From a virus, in the IMG/VR virus record IMGVR_UViG_3300008117_000004, positions 1-64,000 of that record: a stretch of DNA of 64,000 nt; one strand, given 5' to 3'. Below, in pieces: positions 4,649-15,426 of the stretch. Both the position numbers and the translations under genes were made by a program. Below the pieces are notes generated by a model that saw only the letters and a list, made by a program, of their open reading frames with translations, was not told the DNA's origin and did not search any database. The stretch's first letter is position 1. Each line of letters begins with the position of its first letter.

Positions 4649-6151
4649 TTAGTAGATTGAGTAGTATGAGTTTATGTTTGATGAGATACCTGTTCGGTTA
4701 GATGATTGGTCAACATTATAATAAGCCACTATTTCTTGTATGTTACCTTTTAATTTAAAGTTTGTACCTATTTCATCAGCACCTATTGATAACGGTTGTG
4801 TAAATGTTGGTAGTGATGTGTTAGTTGTACCATCAAAACTCATAGTTTCTTGTACGTTATTTCTATAACTCTTTATACGTAAAGCACTTGTAACGTTTAA
4901 TAAATCGGTTTGTTGTTCGTAAAGATATTGAGTGTTAATATTATATACACCAAAATCATAAGTTTTACTAGTTGTTACATCTCTCACTGACATAATTGAC
5001 CTTGCATTACTACGGTACCCAGAAAAATATACAGACATGTTGAATTGTTTAAAATGTCCTATTACTTGAGATGTTATGTTATTTGTTTCAATACTTGACA
5101 CATGTGCTACATATACTTTATCAGTACTAGTAAATGGATAATTACTTGTAACTAAAAAGTCGTTCGAACCATCAAATTTTATTGTTGGTTTACCATTTGT
5201 AGTTATTAATGAACCATTACTTACTATTTGAGGTTGACTGGCAGATGCTTGTTGGGAAGCGTCATATGTTGATGATTGGTCATACCATATGGATACGAAT
5301 CCATTACCAGCTGTAGTTGTTGTTGTAGTTTTTGTATATGGTTGTGTTGTTAATACTGACGTATCGTTTAACGCTTTTTGAAATTGATAACCCCATATGT
5401 AAATGTTTGATTGTACGTTACCAGGGTATAGTGAAGTATTGAGCGTATTTAAATTATTATTAAATCTAATTACACCTACTTGAGAACGGTTTCCAGTTAC
5501 TGTTACTGTACCCCACACTGAACATCTCCACCAACCATTTCCAGCATCAACAATTGATGAACCAAAATTAGCATCATTAGATGCGTTCGAACTATCTAAT
5601 ACAGTACCTGATGATATATTAAATAGAACACAAGGAAGTGAAAAAACATTCCCCGTTGGGCTAGGAAATCCCAGAATAATTGTATCAGGTGCCGATGTTC
5701 CTGGTCCTTTTTTAACGTATACACTCACATTCCAACTTGTTCCAACAGCAAACGATAAAGATGTAGCGTTGTATAATGTGTGATAATTATTAGCTGTGCT
5801 TTCTGCTAATAAATCGGCAGTCATTGTACCATCAGGTGCCGTTGTTTGATTTGAGGTAATGGTTGTAATATATTTACTCCAATAAACATTATCAAATTCC
5901 TCAGAATATAATGCTTGGTTATTTGCACCGACAAAATTCAACATCGATGTTGTATCTAAATTACCATTTGCATCGAATCCGATGTCTTGGGATGTATTGT
6001 CAGACGAACGTCTAACACGAATTGCACTACCAGCGTATGCGTTTCTTAGTTTACGTAATGAGTAAGCTGCTGCCGCTCCATTATAAGTGTCTAAAAGGTA
6101 TGATACTGGTTGTAAATTACCTGACCTCCATCCAACTTTTGTTTGTGTCAT
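4649..6151 (-). CDS. Fibre protein, ArabFuran-like / jelly-roll type
   Basis: This 500 aa protein starts MTQTKVGWRSG. The N-terminal AAAYSLRKLRNAYAGSAIRVRRS and the ANGNLDTTSMLNFVGANNQ stretches match the fibres at 1 and 2895. The middle has PDGTMTADLLAE and GWWRCSVWG, then NGFVSIWYDQS. The C-terminal third is a separate beta-rich domain (TNGKPTIKFDGSNDFL..., SIGADEIGTNFKLKGNIQEIVAYYN) ending INSYYSIY. It looks like a modular adhesin with conserved ends and divergent cores. It is the first gene of this type after the terminator at 6173-6204. Confidence 0.8.
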   Translation of the reverse strand: MTQTKVGWRSGNLQPVSYLLDTYNGAAAAYSLRKLRNAYAGSAIRVRRSSDNTSQDIGFDANGNLDTTSMLNFVGANNQALYSEEFDNVYWSKYITTITSNQTTAPDGTMTADLLAESTANNYHTLYNATSLSFAVGTSWNVSVYVKKGPGTSAPDTIILGFPSPTGNVFSLPCVLFNISSGTVLDSSNASNDANFGSSIVDAGNGWWRCSVWGTVTVTGNRSQVGVIRFNNNLNTLNTSLYPGNVQSNIYIWGYQFQKALNDTSVLTTQPYTKTTTTTTAGNGFVSIWYDQSSTYDASQQASASQPQIVSNGSLITTNGKPTIKFDGSNDFLVTSNYPFTSTDKVYVAHVSSIETNNITSQVIGHFKQFNMSVYFSGYRSNARSIMSVRDVTTSKTYDFGVYNINTQYLYEQQTDLLNVTSALRIKSYRNNVQETMSFDGTTNTSLPTFTQPLSIGADEIGTNFKLKGNIQEIVAYYNVDQSSNRTGISSNINSYYSIY

Positions 6152-6172
6152 TATTTTTTATTTATTTTTTAG

Positions 6173-6204
6173 AAAAGAGTGTTCCTATTATGAAACACTC
6201 TTTT
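6173..6204 (-). terminator. Hairpin terminator after the 863 aa fibre gene
   Basis: A perfect 11-bp stem (AAAAGAGTGTT / AACACTCTTTT) encloses a 10-base loop just downstream of the gene ending at 6216. It separates the long repeat fibre from the following MTQxKVGW fibre array. Confidence 0.7.
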
Positions 6205-6215
6205 ATTTTTTATTT

Positions 6216-8807
6216 TTAAATTAATCCATAAACACCATAAGCTCTAACTTTTGATCCATTATCTGGAGCAATTTCAAAAGTTACGGATTCTACTTTGTTA
6301 TCGATATCAAAGTTAGGAGTATAATCTCCACTATCTTGTAATAGACCGTTAACATAGATTAACTCAGATCCACTTCTAACTGGAACACTCAATGTAAATG
6401 TTGTAATAATACCATTAGCAGATTCAACAATACTTACGTGTTTAGCATATATAGTTTCTAAGTCGTAAGCAATAGAAGCTTCTGCAGACTCAGCTCTTGA
6501 AATTTCTGAATCTAAGTTATCAACAACCTCAGCAAATGAGTCAATTGAAGTTAAGTCAGTGTTAGCAATAATGTAAGATACCTCAGTCGATAATACCGTA
6601 GCAATAGATCCCTCAGCAGCAGTAGCTCTCGAAATCTCAGCAGATAATGCACTATCTAGGGAATTATCAGCAGAAACTCTATTAGAAACTTCAGAAGATA
6701 AATCAGCACCTAATAAATTAGATAAAGATAACTCAGCTGATGTTGCTCTTGAAATTTCCGAAGAAAGACCAGTAGCAATTGAGTTATCAGCAGCTAATCT
6801 AATAGAAGCCTCAGCTGTATCAGCAGATGTTCTAGCAACTAATTCAGAAGAAAGATCAGCAGCTATTGATACATCACCAAGAACTCTTAAAGAAGCCTCT
6901 GTTGAAACCGCATCTGCTCTGTTAACTAATTCGGAAGAAAGATCAGCAGCTATTGAATTGTCAGCAGAAATTCTATTTGATAATTCAGTGGATAATGCAG
7001 CATCGTTTGATAATACATAAGATGCAAATGCTTGATCATTGGTTGTATCAACAGAGTTAATTAATGAAACAATTTCAGCAAATGAGTCTTTATCAGCATC
7101 TGAAGCTAATAAAATAGCATCAATTCGATCTTTTTCTATAGAAAGCTTAGTATCTAAAGAGGCATCACCAGCAACTCTTAAAGAGGTTTCAGTAGAAACC
7201 GCAGATGCTCTAGCAACTAATTCAGAAGAAAGACCAGCAGCTATTGAATTATCAGCAGAAGCTCTAGCAACTAATTCAGAAGAAAGACCAGCAGCTATTG
7301 AATTATCAGCAACTAATCTTGTAGAAGCCTCAGTAGAAATTTGAGCACTTGTATAAGCCTTAGTAACTAAAGATAAATCACCAAATCCAGCTAATGAAGC
7401 TGGTTGAGCAGCAACGTTAATTAAACCAGAGAAAGTACGAGTGCCACTTGCAGGCGCACCAACCGATTCCATCAATCTAACTGTGTTAGTAGTAGCATCA
7501 ACCTCAATTGTAGAACCATCAGTCATTGGAAAAGAGTTTATAACAGAAGCATCAGCAGAAATTCTAGCAACTAATTCAGCAGATAAGTTAGCAGCAATTG
7601 AAGCATCAGCAGAAGCTCTAGCAACTAATTCAGAAGAAAGACCAGCAGCAATTGAGTTATCAGCAGAAGCTCTAGCAACTAATTCAGAAGAAAGACCAGC
7701 AGCTATTGAATTATCAGCAGCTAATCTAATAGAAGCCTCAGCTGTATCAGCAGAAGCTCTAGCAACTAATTCAGAAGAAAGACCAGCAGCTATTGAATTA
7801 TCAGCAGCTAATCTAATAGAAGCCTCAGCAGATAAATCGGATGAGTTATTAACATTTAAATTACTAATTAAAGTAGCTAAAGATGAATCACCAGCAACTC
7901 TATTAGACAACTCAGTTGATAAATTTAAAGTTAACGAAAGCTCAGAGGATTCAGCTCTTGCTTGCTCAGCATCAACATCAGAAATACGAGCTTCAACTTC
8001 AGAAGAAAGATCTAAAGCAATAGAAGTATCTCCGGAAATCCTAGCTACGATTTCAGATGAGATAGCAGCAGCTCTATCAACTAATTCAGTTGATAAGTTA
8101 GCAGCTATTGAATCATCTGCAGCTAATCTTGTAGAAGCCTCAGCAGCGATTGCATTACTAGCTGATCCAGATAATAATGTGATGGCATTATTCATATCAC
8201 TATCAGCATTTTGGAATGCAGTAACGATTTCAGTTAAAGAGTCAATAGCTGAAGGATCTGTATTAGAAATAACAAAATCAACTTTTGTATTCAATGAAGC
8301 TTCTGCTTCAATTGCTCTAGATGCTTCTGAACTTAAATCTGTTGCTAATGATAATTCAGCAGCTTCGGCTCTTGATTGTTCAGCATCAACATCAGCTAAT
8401 CTAGCTGAAGATTCGATCGAAATGTTGTTTTGTAAAGATTGTTCAGCAACGATTCTAGTAGAAATCTCAGCAGACATAGCAGCAGTTACAGATAAATCCG
8501 CAATATCTCTATAATTTGCTTCATCAGCTAATGCGTTTTCTAAAGATAAATCACCAACAACTCTTAAAGATGCTTCAGAAGAAACAGCAGCAGTTCTTAA
8601 AGATTCCTCATTTGATAATGCAGTTTGTAAAGATAAATCACTGGAAACTCTTAAAGAAGCTTCAACACTCTCTTTAGTATCGATAGATGCGATAGTTGAA
8701 ACCAATCCATTAATATCATCAATAACGATACCAACAGGAGCGGTAATCTGTGCGTTGTCCAATATTAAATCGGACTGTCTATTTAATACAATTTTTGTAC
8801 TTGACAT
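6216..8807 (-). CDS. Long repeat-rich fibre protein
   Basis: This 863 aa protein consists mostly of imperfect repeats of about 18 residues, of the type SIAAGLSSELVARASADN and EASIRLAADN. They are Ala/Ser/Leu/Glu-rich with regular hydrophobic spacing, as in a long trimeric coiled-coil shaft. A non-repeat island around residues 420-490 (TNTVRLMESVGAPASGTRTF) interrupts the shaft. The last 80 residues form a globular cap with YVNGLLQDSGDYTPNFD, a motif shared with the proteins at 9302 and 10810. Tail or whisker fibre is the likely role. A possible -7 element lies 57 bases upstream at 8864-8871. Confidence 0.8.
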   Translation of the reverse strand: MSSTKIVLNRQSDLILDNAQITAPVGIVIDDINGLVSTIASIDTKESVEASLRVSSDLSLQTALSNEESLRTAAVSSEASLRVVGDLSLENALADEANYRDIADLSVTAAMSAEISTRIVAEQSLQNNISIESSARLADVDAEQSRAEAAELSLATDLSSEASRAIEAEASLNTKVDFVISNTDPSAIDSLTEIVTAFQNADSDMNNAITLLSGSASNAIAAEASTRLAADDSIAANLSTELVDRAAAISSEIVARISGDTSIALDLSSEVEARISDVDAEQARAESSELSLTLNLSTELSNRVAGDSSLATLISNLNVNNSSDLSAEASIRLAADNSIAAGLSSELVARASADTAEASIRLAADNSIAAGLSSELVARASADNSIAAGLSSELVARASADASIAANLSAELVARISADASVINSFPMTDGSTIEVDATTNTVRLMESVGAPASGTRTFSGLINVAAQPASLAGFGDLSLVTKAYTSAQISTEASTRLVADNSIAAGLSSELVARASADNSIAAGLSSELVARASAVSTETSLRVAGDASLDTKLSIEKDRIDAILLASDADKDSFAEIVSLINSVDTTNDQAFASYVLSNDAALSTELSNRISADNSIAADLSSELVNRADAVSTEASLRVLGDVSIAADLSSELVARTSADTAEASIRLAADNSIATGLSSEISRATSAELSLSNLLGADLSSEVSNRVSADNSLDSALSAEISRATAAEGSIATVLSTEVSYIIANTDLTSIDSFAEVVDNLDSEISRAESAEASIAYDLETIYAKHVSIVESANGIITTFTLSVPVRSGSELIYVNGLLQDSGDYTPNFDIDNKVESVTFEIAPDNGSKVRAYGVYGLI
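7207..7834. repeat. 54-bp direct repeats within the fibre shaft
   Basis: Near-identical 54-base units encoding 18 residues start at 7207 and 7261, and recur as a second cluster between about 7560 and 7834. Copies differ by only a few bases, far less than the rest of the shaft. This suggests recent repeat expansion or recombination within the gene. Confidence 0.8.
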
Positions 8808-10809: not shown

Positions 10810-11739
10810 ATGAGTAATTATAGTTTAAATAAATTTGTTAGGGAAGCAAAACCAACAGATAATTTAGTAACAATATATAATATCAATGGTTTACCAACCT
10901 ATACAGTTAACCCACTTTCTATAACTAGGGTTTTAGTTCAAAATAATTTAGTTGTTTTAACTACAAACAAAAACGTAGTTATAAATCTCGACTTTACTGA
11001 TAATAATGAAGCTAGATTAGCACTTGTTGAATTACAAAGACAATTCGATATAATCAGAAAAAGAATCACAACACAAGCTCAAGCTCAGGCTCAAGCAGTT
11101 GAAATAGTACAATCTGGTACCGACTTTACCCAAATTTATAATCAAATTATTTATGGTACACAAAGTGGTGGTACACAAAGTGGTGGTACACAAAGTAGTA
11201 TTGAGAGTAGAATAGTTGACTTGGTTAAAATGATCAGTCAAAGTATGAATACCCTACAACAAAATATCGGTATTACAGATGCTGGTCCCGATTTTATAAG
11301 TATGTATGATATAAAGAAATTAGAATATAATCCAATTCTATCAACATACTCAACAACTGATAGTTTAACACAAAGAATAAAAACACTTACAGAACATATA
11401 GCTCAGGATATTTACACATTAAATCAAAAACAAGAAAAAATTTCAAATTCATTTAACCCAGTAAACACTTTTAGTGGCAATGAACCTGTTGATATATTAA
11501 ACTTAACTTTTAATGAATTGAGTGAAGGACCTGTAACAATTTTAATAAATGGAATTTATTTAAAACCGAGTAATTCAATTCAGAATATCGCATTTTTTTC
11601 AAATGATGGTATGCAAACAGCTACTGATTATATACAAGAGGGATCTATACTCTATATAAATCCAAATAAATTAGGATATGATATTGATGAGAATGATACA
11701 ATTACAATAGAATATTTAACTAGAAATATTCTATTTTAA
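10810..11739 (+). CDS. Probable virion protein with coiled-coil middle and docking-type C-terminus
   Basis: This 309 aa protein has an N-terminal 70 residues with a PH-like beta pattern ending in an Ala/Leu helix (NNEARLALVELQRQFDIIRKR). The QAQAQAQA stretch and three tandem GTQSG units follow, then helical segments. The C-terminus (ILINGIYLKPSNS...DYIQEGSILYINPNKLG) resembles the NGLLQ module of the proteins at 6216 and 9302. Such architecture fits a tail or neck component. It ends in a 4-base overlap with the convergent methylase gene. Confidence 0.6.
   Translation: MSNYSLNKFVREAKPTDNLVTIYNINGLPTYTVNPLSITRVLVQNNLVVLTTNKNVVINLDFTDNNEARLALVELQRQFDIIRKRITTQAQAQAQAVEIVQSGTDFTQIYNQIIYGTQSGGTQSGGTQSSIESRIVDLVKMISQSMNTLQQNIGITDAGPDFISMYDIKKLEYNPILSTYSTTDSLTQRIKTLTEHIAQDIYTLNQKQEKISNSFNPVNTFSGNEPVDILNLTFNELSEGPVTILINGIYLKPSNSIQNIAFFSNDGMQTATDYIQEGSILYINPNKLGYDIDENDTITIEYLTRNILF
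11155..11199. repeat. Three tandem 15-bp repeats
   Basis: The unit GGTACACAAAGTGGT occurs three times in a row (last copy ending AGT) and encodes GTQSG. It lies at a probable hinge between the helical segments of the virion protein at 10810-11739. Confidence 0.85.
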
Positions 11740-12458
11740 TAATTCATTATTATAAATTCAGTACCCATAATTGTCATCTTTTTCTCAATTCTAAAGTTAT
11801 TATATAAATTCTCCAAATCATCAAATTGCCAATAACTTAAAACAAATCTACCTTTAATAGATTTTAATATATCAGATAACTCTTTATGAGATTCTTTATT
11901 AAAATTATGATTTATGTAGTAATTCTCTTTACCCATATAAGGTGGATCAATATAAAAAAATGTTGATTCTGAATCATATTCGGTAAAAATCTTTTTATAA
12001 TCCCAGTTATGTATTTTAGTTATTTTATCTAAAAGTGGTTTATAAGCCCTAAGTTTTAATTTGAATATCTCAAACTCACTATCACCTAACCAAGAATTTT
12101 TACCTATTTTATTTGTTGATGAACAAGTTAAAATTATTAACCACTGAATTGCCTTTTGTAATTCATCACCATCATTAAGTTTATTTAAAACATCAGAATA
12201 GTAGTTTTGATCTACTTTGATATTTTTTATTTCCGAAATAAAATCTTTGTTAAATTTTAGTTGATTAAATAAATTATAATTCAAATAATTAATATCATTA
12301 TAGATATAATCAACACCCTTAAACTTACTAAAGTTTAAAGAAAAGAAAACACCCATTGCCCCACCAAAAGGCTCAATATATGTTTTTATATCGGTTGGTA
12401 TATTTGGTGTTATAAAATTTGATAACCTACTTTTTTCACCTAAATACGGTATTAACAT
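11736..12458 (-). CDS. dam: DNA adenine N6-methyltransferase, Dam / D12 class
   Basis: This 240 aa protein carries the three diagnostic D12-class motifs. They are IPYLGEKSRL (residues 3-12), the SAM-binding EPFGGAMG (29-36) and the catalytic DPPY (171-174, in FFYIDPPYMG). It should transfer a methyl group from S-adenosylmethionine to adenine N6 in phage DNA, probably against host restriction or for timing. The target site cannot be predicted, and GATC is only the family default. It is the last gene of the five-gene operon; its ATG overlaps the stop of the cytochrome gene (TAATG). Length is close to the family norm. Confidence 0.88.
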   Translation of the reverse strand: MLIPYLGEKSRLSNFITPNIPTDIKTYIEPFGGAMGVFFSLNFSKFKGVDYIYNDINYLNYNLFNQLKFNKDFISEIKNIKVDQNYYSDVLNKLNDGDELQKAIQWLIILTCSSTNKIGKNSWLGDSEFEIFKLKLRAYKPLLDKITKIHNWDYKKIFTEYDSESTFFYIDPPYMGKENYYINHNFNKESHKELSDILKSIKGRFVLSYWQFDDLENLYNNFRIEKKMTIMGTEFIIMNY

Positions 12459-12928
12459 TAATCAGTTCTATATTTTATACTATATATTGTATATGACTTT
12501 ATATATTCAATTTGACTATCGTTCAATACTTCATTAAACTTTGGCATAATCATTGATTTTGGCATCCATTTATTAAATAATACTTCAGTATGTTTATATT
12601 TTTTTGATAAATCACTTATATCTTTAACACTTTCATTAAAGTATTTAAAAGAAATACTATCATTTAATTTTGGACCAGCAAAATCTTTATCAAAAGAGTG
12701 ACAACTAGCACAGTATCTAGAGAATAAAACTTTACCAGAATCAATATATTCTGGTAAAATATTTATCTCAGATAAAGTATCATCTTTATCTCTATAATCA
12801 GAAATATTTCCAGTTGTTGGTTTATTATAACTATTAATTTTTGGCTCAAGATAAGTTCTACAAAATGTGTGTATTAAAAACCAAATACCAAATATAACCA
12901 AAAACTCATATATTATTAGTTTTTTCAT
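12458..12928 (-). CDS. Membrane-anchored c-type cytochrome
   Basis: This 156 aa protein has an N-terminal hydrophobic helix (about residues 4-22) that could act as signal anchor, then a linker. It then has a class I cytochrome c-like domain. The haem attachment motif is CASCH (C73, C76, H77) in LFSRYCASCHSFDKDFAGPKL, and IMPKF supplies a plausible axial Met (M128), followed by a closing helix NDSQIEYIKSY. The haem would be attached outside the cytoplasmic membrane by the host maturation system. Electron partners are unknown. Its ATG overlaps the stop of the Tyr-rich gene (ATGA). Cytochromes are rare in phages, which makes this a notable host-derived gene. Confidence 0.8.
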   Translation of the reverse strand: MKKLIIYEFLVIFGIWFLIHTFCRTYLEPKINSYNKPTTGNISDYRDKDDTLSEINILPEYIDSGKVLFSRYCASCHSFDKDFAGPKLNDSISFKYFNESVKDISDLSKKYKHTEVLFNKWMPKSMIMPKFNEVLNDSQIEYIKSYTIYSIKYRTD

Positions 12929-13284
12929 CTATTCCAATAATAGTATTGATAATTGTAGTTATAATTATAGTTTTGTCTTGGGTAATAGTAATTTTCATAA
13001 TACCAATTAGACCAATAACAATACCAAGCATAAGAATTCCAATATTGTGCTAACCAACCATTTACAGTCCAAACATAAATATATCCAGAATACTGCTGTT
13101 GTTCCCATTGTAAAATTCTGTATCTTTTTTGATAACCACCTTGAAAATTATATTGATAATAATAGTCATATTCTTTAACTCTTTGACCTTGATATTGGTA
13201 ATAATTACCAGATTGCCAACCTGATTGTGAAAAAGAAAATAAAGTTGTTAATGTTATTAATAATGTTAGTAAAAATTTTCTCAT
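12925..13284 (-). CDS. Secreted Tyr/Trp-rich protein
   Basis: This 119 aa protein has a clear signal peptide (MRKFLLTLLITLTTLFSFSQ), the end of which is typical of flavobacterial exported proteins. The roughly 100-residue mature part is extreme in composition: I count about 29 Tyr and 9 Trp, with runs such as NYNYNYNYQYYYW at the C-terminus and a single Cys. No known domain is visible. It might be a surface-coating, adhesive or amyloid-like protein, or one whose tyrosines undergo redox cross-linking; all of these are guesses. It sits between the M16 peptidase and the cytochrome c gene with near-zero spacing, so the three are probably co-translated. Confidence 0.75.
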   Translation of the reverse strand: MRKFLLTLLITLTTLFSFSQSGWQSGNYYQYQGQRVKEYDYYYQYNFQGGYQKRYRILQWEQQQYSGYIYVWTVNGWLAQYWNSYAWYCYWSNWYYENYYYPRQNYNYNYNYQYYYWNR

Positions 13285-13286
13285 AA

Positions 13287-14396
13287 TTATTTCTTAAATT
13301 CATTTTTGTCATTTGATACATAAAAATTATCAAATTGATAGTACTTATCATAAACTTCTTTAACCTTCATAAAGTTAACTTCATCTAAGATGTCATAAAC
13401 ACTCCAACCTTCTGGATTTATGAATTGATTTACGTTTTTATATCTTAAAATTTCATCTTTCTTTTGTCTAACTGAGTAGAAATCTTTAACTAAGTCAAAT
13501 CTGTCTTTTGTTAAATACTTTTTAGGATTGTCTAAAACCAATTTAGTAGCATCTACAACAGCATTAAAGTTTTTATTAGATGTTTGAGTTGCGATAGCAT
13601 TGATTCCTTGTTGATTCATTCTTGATTGATAGCAGTGTACATAATAAACTAAACCTCTTTTTTCTCTAATTTCTTGATAAAGTGGAGATTTTAATCCTAA
13701 TGATAACATTGCGTTGATATAATGAACATAAGCAAAGTCTTCATTGATAATAGGTGATAACATAATTAAAGATGATTTATCTTTAAAATCATTATTTAAC
13801 TCAAATGGTACTTTGTAGTCACCATACTCAACATTTTTAATGATTTCTCTTTCAGCAAAATCTAAAGTCTTGTTCTTATAAGGATTGTTTTTAGAAACAT
13901 TAATTACTTTAGTTGGTTTAGCATATTGTAGTTCCCAAAAGTTTATTATGTCTAAAAATTTTAAACTTTCTAAATCTTCTTTTAAACCGATAGGGCCATA
14001 GTCATTAAATAATTTTCTAGAAAGATTTAACATATGAGATTCACTTAAATCTGTGAAGCTATCCATATATTCTTCCATTACAATCTTTCTCTCATTCTCA
14101 AAATCTTCTTTTGTTATTTTAAAATCGAAAATTAAATCTACTATAATATGTTTCCATTTATTTACTTTTTCATCAAGCCCTTGGATATACATACATATAT
14201 CATTAGAACTTGTCCATAAATTCCATTCGACACCGTCTCGGTCAAAATCTTCTTGTAAGTGATCAATCATTTTTGTTTGCAAATGTTCTACCAAATGAGA
14301 TATCCCGAAATTTCCTTTCTTTTCAAGGTTAGTTGAGCCTTCCCATAGTATGTAAAATGAACTTAGATCATTTTCACTCTTTAAATTAATTATCAT
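13287..14396 (-). CDS. M16-family zinc metallopeptidase
   Basis: This 369 aa protein has the inverted zinc motif HxxEH (H34, E37, H38 in GISHLVEHLQ). The distal glutamate region ENERKIVMEEY (E108/E109) lies about 70 residues on. The C-terminal half carries the M16 signature SPLYQEIREKRGLVYYV, whose Arg and Tyr normally contact substrate. It is therefore a single-unit M16 enzyme, slightly shorter than the roughly 420 aa bacterial forms. No signal peptide is visible, so it probably acts in the cytoplasm. Processing of phage virion or host proteins is possible. Its ATG lies inside the end of the ribbon-helix-helix gene, and it leads into the secreted Tyr-rich gene two bases after its stop. Confidence 0.85.
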   Translation of the reverse strand: MIINLKSENDLSSFYILWEGSTNLEKKGNFGISHLVEHLQTKMIDHLQEDFDRDGVEWNLWTSSNDICMYIQGLDEKVNKWKHIIVDLIFDFKITKEDFENERKIVMEEYMDSFTDLSESHMLNLSRKLFNDYGPIGLKEDLESLKFLDIINFWELQYAKPTKVINVSKNNPYKNKTLDFAEREIIKNVEYGDYKVPFELNNDFKDKSSLIMLSPIINEDFAYVHYINAMLSLGLKSPLYQEIREKRGLVYYVHCYQSRMNQQGINAIATQTSNKNFNAVVDATKLVLDNPKKYLTKDRFDLVKDFYSVRQKKDEILRYKNVNQFINPEGWSVYDILDEVNFMKVKEVYDKYYQFDNFYVSNDKNEFKK

Positions 14397-14550
14397 TTTC
14401 TTCTAAATATTTTTTTATTAAATACTCTACAAATCTAGATTTTTTATAAAACTTAGATTTTAGTAGTTCATCTATTTTTTGATTTAGTTTAGGATCAATA
14501 CTTATTGAAATTTTAATCCTTTTTTCATCATCGGGTATTTTATTATTCAT
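14386..14550 (-). CDS. Ribbon-helix-helix DNA-binding protein
   Basis: This 54 aa protein was found by reading the - strand: MNNKIPDDEKRIKISISIDP, then KLNQKIDELLKSK..KKSRFVEYLIKKYLEE. A short beta strand (RIKISISID) followed by two amphipathic helices is the ribbon-helix-helix fold of CopG/Arc-type repressors, which bind operators as dimers. Its end overlaps the M16 start by 11 bases (ATGATAATTAA). It is the first gene of the five-gene operon and is the obvious candidate for its autoregulator. The start is chosen as the only ATG that gives the complete fold. Confidence 0.75.
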   Translation of the reverse strand: MNNKIPDDEKRIKISISIDPKLNQKIDELLKSKFYKKSRFVEYLIKKYLEENDN

Positions 14551-14625
14551 AATTACTTATAAAAAAAATTTTAAAAAAGTTTATAAAAAGTATGTAGGAA
14601 AGTGGTAAGTTTTTATATATAAATT

Positions 14626-15426
14626 ATGTTATTAAATAAATTTATAAAAGTTAAAGTTTCCAATAGAACTAAAAAATATTTCCTTGAAAAGGGATATATT
14701 GAAGATAATGGTTATTTTATGGTTTTACCAGAGGATATGAATGATTCTAATAGAACAAAAGTAAAATGTGAATGTGAATATTGTGGAGTAATAAATGATG
14801 TAACTTGGTCAAATTATATATTACAAATGAATAAAGCGGAAGAGAAAATATATTCATGTCATAAATGTCATTTTAATAAGACAAAAATCATCTTTATGAA
14901 AAATTATGGGGTAGATAATATTCAAATTTTAGATCAAGTTAAAAATAAAATTAAAAAAACTTGTATGGAAAAATATGGTGTTGATTGTGTTTTAAAATCA
15001 AAAAAGATAAAAGATAAAATTAAAAATATTTTTATAGAGAAGTATGGTGTAGATCACCCTATGAAAAATGAAAAAATTTTTAATAAAGCTCAGAAAAACT
15101 CATATAGAACTATAAAATATAAAGAAACTGAATTATATTATAAAGGAACGTATGAATTAGATTTTATAGAATATTGTATAAAAAATGAAATTAATATAGA
15201 AAATGGTCCAACTATAAAATATAAATTGTGTGAAAAAGAAAGAGTTTATTATTCGGATTTCTTAATAAGAGATATTAATCTAATTGTTGAAGTAAAGTCA
15301 ACTTATACTTATTGTGATTATGATGAAAATATAGCAAAAATGAAATACACAATAGAGAATGGTTATAACTTTATTTTCATTATAGATAAGGACTATACTG
15401 ATTTTGAAAAAATAATAAATTCTTAA
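14626..15426 (+). CDS. Homing-type endonuclease, PD-(D/E)XK-like with YGVD repeats
   Basis: This 266 aa protein has an N-terminal zinc-ribbon-like part with two Cys pairs (CECEYCG and CHKC). Repeats containing KYGVD, as in DUF723-type putative homing endonucleases, follow (three copies between about residues 88 and 147). The C-terminal domain reads YYSDFLIRDINLIVEVKSTYTY, a PD-(D/E)XK-like nuclease core (D...EVKS). It is a + strand gene inserted between - strand genes, separating the late-type motif at 15443 from the operon that starts at 14550. I infer a free-standing homing endonuclease. Confidence 0.72.
   Translation: MLLNKFIKVKVSNRTKKYFLEKGYIEDNGYFMVLPEDMNDSNRTKVKCECEYCGVINDVTWSNYILQMNKAEEKIYSCHKCHFNKTKIIFMKNYGVDNIQILDQVKNKIKKTCMEKYGVDCVLKSKKIKDKIKNIFIEKYGVDHPMKNEKIFNKAQKNSYRTIKYKETELYYKGTYELDFIEYCIKNEINIENGPTIKYKLCEKERVYYSDFLIRDINLIVEVKSTYTYCDYDENIAKMKYTIENGYNFIFIIDKDYTDFEKIINS

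Follow-up and report, generated by a model that had tools for sequence, protein, structure and literature searches.

A variable gene slot of a megaphage holding genes for a predicted exported Tyr-rich protein and a predicted c-type cytochrome

The DNA analysed here (the window) is a stretch of 64,000 nucleotides (nt), positions 1 to 64,000 of the IMG/VR virus record IMGVR_UViG_3300008117_000004, which has 135,802 bases in all and is a fragment of a phage akin to the 634-735 kb 'huge phages'. On its minus strand, two small genes, one for a predicted exported protein rich in Tyr and Trp and one for a predicted c-type cytochrome, lie between the genes for an M16 peptidase and a D12-class DNA methylase, and with a small ribbon-helix-helix (RHH)-like gene in front they make up a unit of five (Table 1). 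The region is a variable cargo slot between long-standing M16 and methylase genes of a megaphage, a description in which we place high confidence.

Genes at the locus and the slot between M16 and methylase

Table 1. Predicted genes of the five-gene unit and the block upstream of it, in window coordinates
Feature	Position	Strand	Basis or remark
RHH-like protein, 54 amino acids (aa)	14386-14550	-	First gene of the unit; weak profile matches, two-helix AlphaFold (AF2) model
Predicted M16 (M16B-like) zinc metallopeptidase, 369 aa	13287-14396	-	Pfam, alignment
Predicted exported Tyr/Trp-rich protein, 119 aa	12925-13284	-	Predicted signal peptide ~1-21, mature part ~98 aa; no family match
Predicted mono-haem c-type cytochrome, 156 aa, N-terminal membrane anchor	12458-12928	-	PF00034, CASCH, hydropathy
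D12-class adenine-N6 DNA methyltransferase, 240 aa	11736-12458	-	PF02086; EPFxG and DPPY motifs
Candidate 24-nt block upstream of the RHH gene	14585-14608	-	Common to L135 with one variable base; single match in the window, 0 expected

In transcription order the genes are joined by an 11-nt overlap, a 2-nt gap, a 4-nt overlap and a 1-nt overlap. Open reading frame (ORF) positions and Pfam scans bore out an earlier note on this DNA as to the five minus-strand genes, their junctions and their general identities, and the packing resembles a single transcription unit, in line with its proposal that the genes are made together. Tight packing is common in the 135.8 kb record, with 32 of the 93 same-strand junctions falling between -20 and +5 nt and four runs of four tightly packed genes (ORFs of at least 80 aa, hence leaving out the RHH gene).

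The slot was compared across 50 M16 loci (45 on viral contigs and 5 in phage genomes), 47 of which lie outside the window virus; at each, the view took in at most three genes ahead of M16 and five behind it. Three loci (L128-L130) belong to the window virus itself, L013 and L132 share a contig and were counted once, and the loci do not all represent distinct viruses, several being apparent copies of one another (L141/L142/L148/L154, L157/L158, L165/L166, L162/L008 and L168/L009). All five genes occurred together at none of the 47 loci, M16 with the methylase at nine and the RHH gene with M16 at two, and the reading of the unit as a conserved five-gene system was therefore rejected. A methylase stood downstream of M16 on the same strand at L005, L006 and L131-L137, and this pair was kept at nine of the ten non-window loci with an M16 identity of at least 68%; the tenth, L138 (68%), is cut at the contig start and has no methylase in view. 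Below 68% M16 identity, no locus had a methylase among the three genes before or five after M16. Gene order and strand in LR745206.1, LR756502.1 and L131-L137 are those of the window, with M16 proteins 69-73% identical and the methylases beside them 58-63% identical in the three relatives aligned.

It is what lies between the two genes that differs. The slot is empty in three of the nine relatives (L005, 0 nt; L132, 17 nt; L137, 3 nt) and holds a small Lys-rich gene in five (L131, L134, L135, L136 and L006); L006 has a second D12 methylase (PF02086, 87.8 bits) as well. In L133 it is occupied by an IS605-type TnpB gene (6145-7350, minus strand; Pfam OrfB_IS605 and Cas12f1-like_TNB). Thus LR745206.1, LR756502.1 and L131-L137 have nothing, a Lys-rich gene, a second D12 methylase or TnpB where the window has the Tyr-rich and cytochrome genes. 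By the earlier note, absence of these two genes from close relatives would count against its reading; both are absent from the interval in all nine, although LR756502 has a cytochrome elsewhere in its genome. Variable presence between conserved genes, by which auxiliary or moron cargo is judged, is what we found at this locus. No convincing insertion repeats flanked the cassette, and the base composition of its genes (0.227 and 0.258 G+C, against a gene mean of 0.279 with a standard deviation of 0.039) carried no clear foreign mark. The variable slot corrects a likely error, as tightly packed neighbours in huge phages need not form one system.

A further exported-type protein, of 172 aa and with a zincin-like HELGHWFGLKH motif, is encoded just after the methylase in L005 (LR745206, 9847-10365, plus strand); its Pfam peptidase matches were below cut-off.

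The cytochrome and the Tyr-rich protein

The cytochrome product scored 26.4 bits with PF00034 (cut-off 21.3) and 26.8-27 bits with PF13442, at the cut-off of 27 itself, so that it fell short in one scan and was counted over in another. With this family score and one CxxCH motif (CASCH, residues 73-77) it is predicted to be a class I mono-haem c-type cytochrome, and Met128, invariant in an alignment of three phage cytochromes, is a candidate distal ligand. Mono-haem class I cytochromes c are by family electron carriers and not peroxidases. Three cellular matches confirmed by pattern scan were Bacteroidota cytochrome domains with 28-30% identity; such Bacteroidota class I cytochromes c (PF00034/PF13442) have one CxxCH and a candidate distal Met in common with the window protein, and differ in being domains within larger proteins of 405-584 aa. 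The haem-attachment family Cytochrom_C_asm, the one maturation family searched for, was found in none of eight phage records (three of which are the window virus) as against 11 of 14 control genomes, and maturation of the cytochrome would probably fall to the host.

Among viruses the nearest cytochrome was that of the 642 kb phage LR756502, with 37% identity over 69% of the query. PF13442 exceeded its cut-off in six of ten records, four being the window virus and the others LR756502 and LR756501, and PF00034 did so in five of eight, three of them the window virus. A tblastn search of 50,697 phage records with the window, L127 and LR756501 cytochromes returned only LR756502, LR756501 and LR756503, a twin of LR756501 with the same length, and no further viral contig was confirmed to carry either the LR756502 or the LR756501 cytochrome. 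Both of these cytochromes have, by eye, a lipobox-like N-terminus. A different c-type cytochrome, of 228 aa, is encoded on two IMG/VR contigs (L127, 3941-4627, and L126, 3212-3898; PF00034 43.5 and 47.8 bits) and appears by eye to have a signal peptide and a C-terminal membrane anchor; L127 also carries GCTD...NYD...GSC repeats resembling those of the protein beside the LR756502 cytochrome.

Past its predicted signal peptide, whose cleavage site is our own reading, the protein encoded before the cytochrome is 40% aromatic (39 of 98 residues: 29 Tyr, 9 Trp and 1 Phe). That its gene is real is supported by a low third-position G+C (0.175) and by the close junctions at either end. Within the limits used, the protein matched nothing in Pfam, PHROGs, NCBIfam, PADLOC or the PDB sequence set; it had no relatives in the phage records and none confirmed in the cellular genome contigs. 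A two-row profile (A5) used to look for its relatives matched 10 of 395 Bacteroidota genomes at E ≤0.01, and the six of these ten that were read seemed to be signal-peptide or unrelated matches. The AF2 model, of low confidence (mean predicted local distance difference test score (pLDDT) 55.4), has strands at residues 21-74 and a pLDDT below 50 over residues 72-119, which with low confidence suggests a beta-meander followed by a disordered Tyr/Asn-rich tail. A Trp-rich exported-type ORF of 128 aa in LR756504.1 (near 471392, ~471.4 kb; L078, 1498-1884) showed weak similarity to it (E 0.043; z 3.4; 6 of 500 shuffles scored as high). Suggestive as this is, the ORF was not accepted as a relative, because it had been picked from a search.

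Both proteins carry predicted export or anchor signals, with a maximum 15-residue N-terminal hydropathy of 2.44 (from residue 5) for the cytochrome and 2.14 for the Tyr-rich protein, and their genes are adjacent, so that the earlier description of an exported Tyr-rich protein beside an extracytoplasmic cytochrome holds as a prediction. A crude export rule was satisfied by three of the ~145 record ORFs, two being this pair and the third (133077-133454) seemingly a false call; two random genes of the record are same-strand neighbours in 1.1% of pairs. The M16 protein (0.17, no signal peptide seen) and the methylase (0.19) both lack an N-terminal hydrophobic segment, and the earlier reading of all five genes as an envelope module is not supported.

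A second pairing is found in LR756502 at 57.3-58.1 kb, where the cytochrome gene starts 1 nt after a small exported-protein gene. In both phages a c-type cytochrome with an exported-type N-terminus thus stands directly behind a small exported-protein gene; the LR756502 pair differs in lying elsewhere in the genome, away from M16 and methylase, in its lipobox-type anchor and in its unrelated, lipoprotein-like partner. The coupling of a cytochrome to an exported-protein gene accordingly recurs in LR756502 and does not extend to LR756501, where the cytochrome gene is on its own.

The flanking genes and the source virus

The M16 protein is a predicted metallopeptidase in which both domains score over threshold (PF05193, 43 bits, cut-off 23; PF00675, 26 bits, cut-off 22.3) and the predicted active-site residues are kept. 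H34, E37, H38 and E109 are invariant in a seven-sequence alignment, giving an HxxEH motif and distal Glu that we take to be those of the M16 active site. The best solved relative by profile was 3hdi (E 7.9e-43), presumably a Bacillus processing protease. Compared with M16B peptidases (3hdi and gp2 of Bacillus phage G) the window protein is alike in both M16 domains and the catalytic motif, and differs in its length of 369 aa and its identity to gp2 of about 24-26%. The peptidase is widely kept in uncultured phages, being present in those of 634 kb (70.7% identity), 642 kb (69.8%), 735 kb (47.7%) and 636 kb (39.2%); numerous IMG/VR contigs carry it too, and phage G has a distant form (gp2, 25.7%). 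A role as a morphogenesis protease was considered and found no consistent link when 11 proteins neighbouring M16 at seven distant or other loci, a minority of the M16 loci, were scanned against PHROGs: these included a terminase (L171, two genes before the nearer neighbours of M16), an SbcC-like protein (L164), an ATPase (L167) and an RNA polymerase subunit and a helicase (both L170), and six of the 11 had no match. In phage G, an annotated terminase adjoins M16.

The methylase scored 80.3 bits with PF02086 (cut-off 22), with DPPY invariant in four aligned sequences and EPFxG kept. Its score with the Dam subfamily model TIGR00571 was 70.8 bits, below the curated cut-off of 114.85, so of the earlier label 'Dam-like methylase' the D12 class stands and membership of the Dam subfamily is not proven. 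GATC sites were not depleted in the record (386 observed, 351 expected from base composition). In PADLOC, methylase models and a PD-Lambda-5 component matched the methylase, and the other proteins of the unit had no match. On L011, a 19.7 kb contig from this virus, 60 nt are missing at the convergent ends of the methylase gene and the gene at 10810-11739 (about window 11738-11797); this alters the last methylase residues and reflects either a genuine allele or an error of assembly.

Of the five assignments, RHH is the least secure: RHH_3 gave 13 bits against a cut-off of 21.6. The best PHROG match was a family of unknown function (E 4e-6), followed by a CopG-like repressor (E 0.0045), and the AF2 model (mean pLDDT 66.5) has the two expected helices, with the expected strand region at a pLDDT below 50 and partly modelled as helix. 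It is plausible that this protein is a CopG/Arc-like RHH protein and possibly binds DNA. Homologues precede M16 at L135 (80% identical, with the same 11-nt overlap) and L146 (35%, 20-nt gap). The block upstream of the gene (Table 1) is a candidate promoter or operator, or may be part of the leader of a divergent gene. That neighbour, DUF7487/homing-endonuclease-like and on the plus strand at 14626-15426, adjoins the RHH gene and has a relative that is also beside RHH-M16 in L135.

By a simple ORF comparison, 82 of the 145 record ORFs were matched in LR756502 (median 49%), 77 in LR745206 and 77 in G004. Complete phage genomes of 634, 636, 642 and 735 kb have been published, and the main text of that work predicts Bacteroidetes hosts for those above 634 kb (PMC7162821); the words 'cytochrome' and 'peptidase' are absent from this main text, taken apart from its supplements. 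The 642 kb phage LR756502 also encodes a 683-aa TonB-dependent receptor with a signal-peptide-like N-terminus (LR756502.1 150950-153001; L191 954-3002, minus strand; Plug 50.4 and barrel 78.5 bits, both above Pfam cut-offs), an outer-membrane receptor gene in a phage.

Possible roles of the cassette and comparison with known systems

As a whole, the best explanation, to which we assign a probability of about 0.5, is that the slot holds a two-gene envelope cassette whose tethered cytochrome serves as a one-electron carrier in host respiration. The host cytochrome c maturation machinery would attach haem outside the membrane, and during infection the tethered protein may carry single electrons from host quinol-oxidising complexes to terminal oxidases or another periplasmic acceptor. 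The Tyr-rich protein, exported with it and partly beta sheet, would work in the envelope, perhaps within that redox context; M16 and the methylase would be cytosolic neighbours with separate jobs, with the RHH protein as a possible regulator of the unit. Because mono-haem class I cytochromes are electron carriers by family, the simplest reading is a role in host respiration or in some other periplasmic redox step; the respiratory step taken by itself is tentative, with chances a shade under even.

Several points weigh against this explanation. It is drawn from genes, with haem and expression both predicted, and the Tyr-rich protein would be linked to the cytochrome by adjacency, gene overlap and shared predicted export. 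All four records that bear the cassette come from one virus (over 13.1 kb two match the window at 100% identity, and one has a 60-nt deletion at the methylase end), so its conservation cannot be judged from them. The export count came from a home-made rule, which 46 of 924 ORFs in LR756502 satisfied, the gene before the cytochrome among them. In that phage the exported partner shows no similarity to the Tyr-rich protein (as high a score came from 383 of 500 shuffles); what the two paired cases have in common is thus an arrangement and not a partner family, and the LR756501 cytochrome gene is solitary. Cytochromes are also rare, PF13442 having been found at E 0.1 in none of 22 further M16-bearing phage records, most of them fragments, with the records of the remaining M16 loci unsearched.

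Some of these same observations would fit independent morons, in which the Tyr-rich protein and the cytochrome are unrelated cargo that share a slot and a transcript merely because the slot accepts insertions. Relatives' slots do hold unrelated genes, and one viral cytochrome stands alone while the exported neighbours of the two paired cases are dissimilar. We nevertheless consider this unlikely, as both products look exported where such ORFs are scarce in the record, their genes overlap by 4 nt, and the nearest viral cytochrome is likewise behind an exported-protein gene. A similarly low likelihood attaches to the idea, overlapping with the last so that the odds do not sum to one, that the cytochrome alone is directed at respiration as an auxiliary metabolic gene and the Tyr-rich protein has a structural or surface role unconnected with redox. 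The cytochromes of LR756502, LR756501, L126 and L127 do lack a Tyr-rich partner, and a study of Microcystis viruses lists a virus-linked 'cytochrome C' among photosynthesis genes (PMC12542629); this idea leaves unexplained the adjacency of two exported ORFs that are the only well-supported ones in the record.

Under the proposal of the earlier note, oxidation of Tyr and Trp by the cytochrome would cross-link the exported protein at the surface of the cell, which could block superinfection or help lysis. In favour of this, both proteins do look extracytoplasmic, their genes overlap, Tyr and Trp make up 38 of the 98 mature residues, and huge-phage membrane and surface proteins have been suggested to affect infection by other phages (PMC7162821). 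Against it, class I cytochromes c oxidise Tyr poorly unless peroxide is present, family scans revealed no peroxidase domain in the unit, no other virus was found with the pair, and M16 and the methylase do not look exported. For oxidative cross-linking of this protein we found no specific support, and we regard it as improbable. Still more doubtful, by a little, is an extracytoplasmic redox cassette in which the cytochrome exchanges electrons with the Tyr/Trp-dense protein, forming a cross-linked envelope layer or a hole-hopping conduit; if true, it would remodel the surface or electron flow of the infected cell, with megaphage variants using different exported partners.

In favour of the respiratory-carrier reading there is a precedent in cyanophages, where phage electron-transfer genes are best described: these phages carry plastocyanin, ferredoxin and PTOX genes, and their plastocyanin is proposed as an electron donor to host cytochrome c oxidase (PMC10452541). 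Exported-type c cytochromes in the window virus and in phages of 642 and 735 kb point to very large phages as possible modulators of respiration or envelope chemistry in Bacteroidota hosts. As the earlier note had supposed, no report of a phage system of this make-up or of the Tyr-rich/cytochrome arrangement was found in the literature searched, with preprints and most subscription papers outside its scope. Viral reads of cbb3 cytochrome oxidase subunit I are reported in another study (PMC3474794). As far as the consulted parts of these papers go (PMC10452541, PMC3474794 and PMC12542629), the known genes and those of the window are alike in being virus-borne parts of electron transport, and the known ones differ in their photosynthetic or proteobacterial settings and in having no pairing with an aromatic-rich exported protein. 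Phage cargo and virus-borne electron-transport genes are both known, and it is the aromatic-rich exported partner and the megaphage slot that are new relative to the literature searched.

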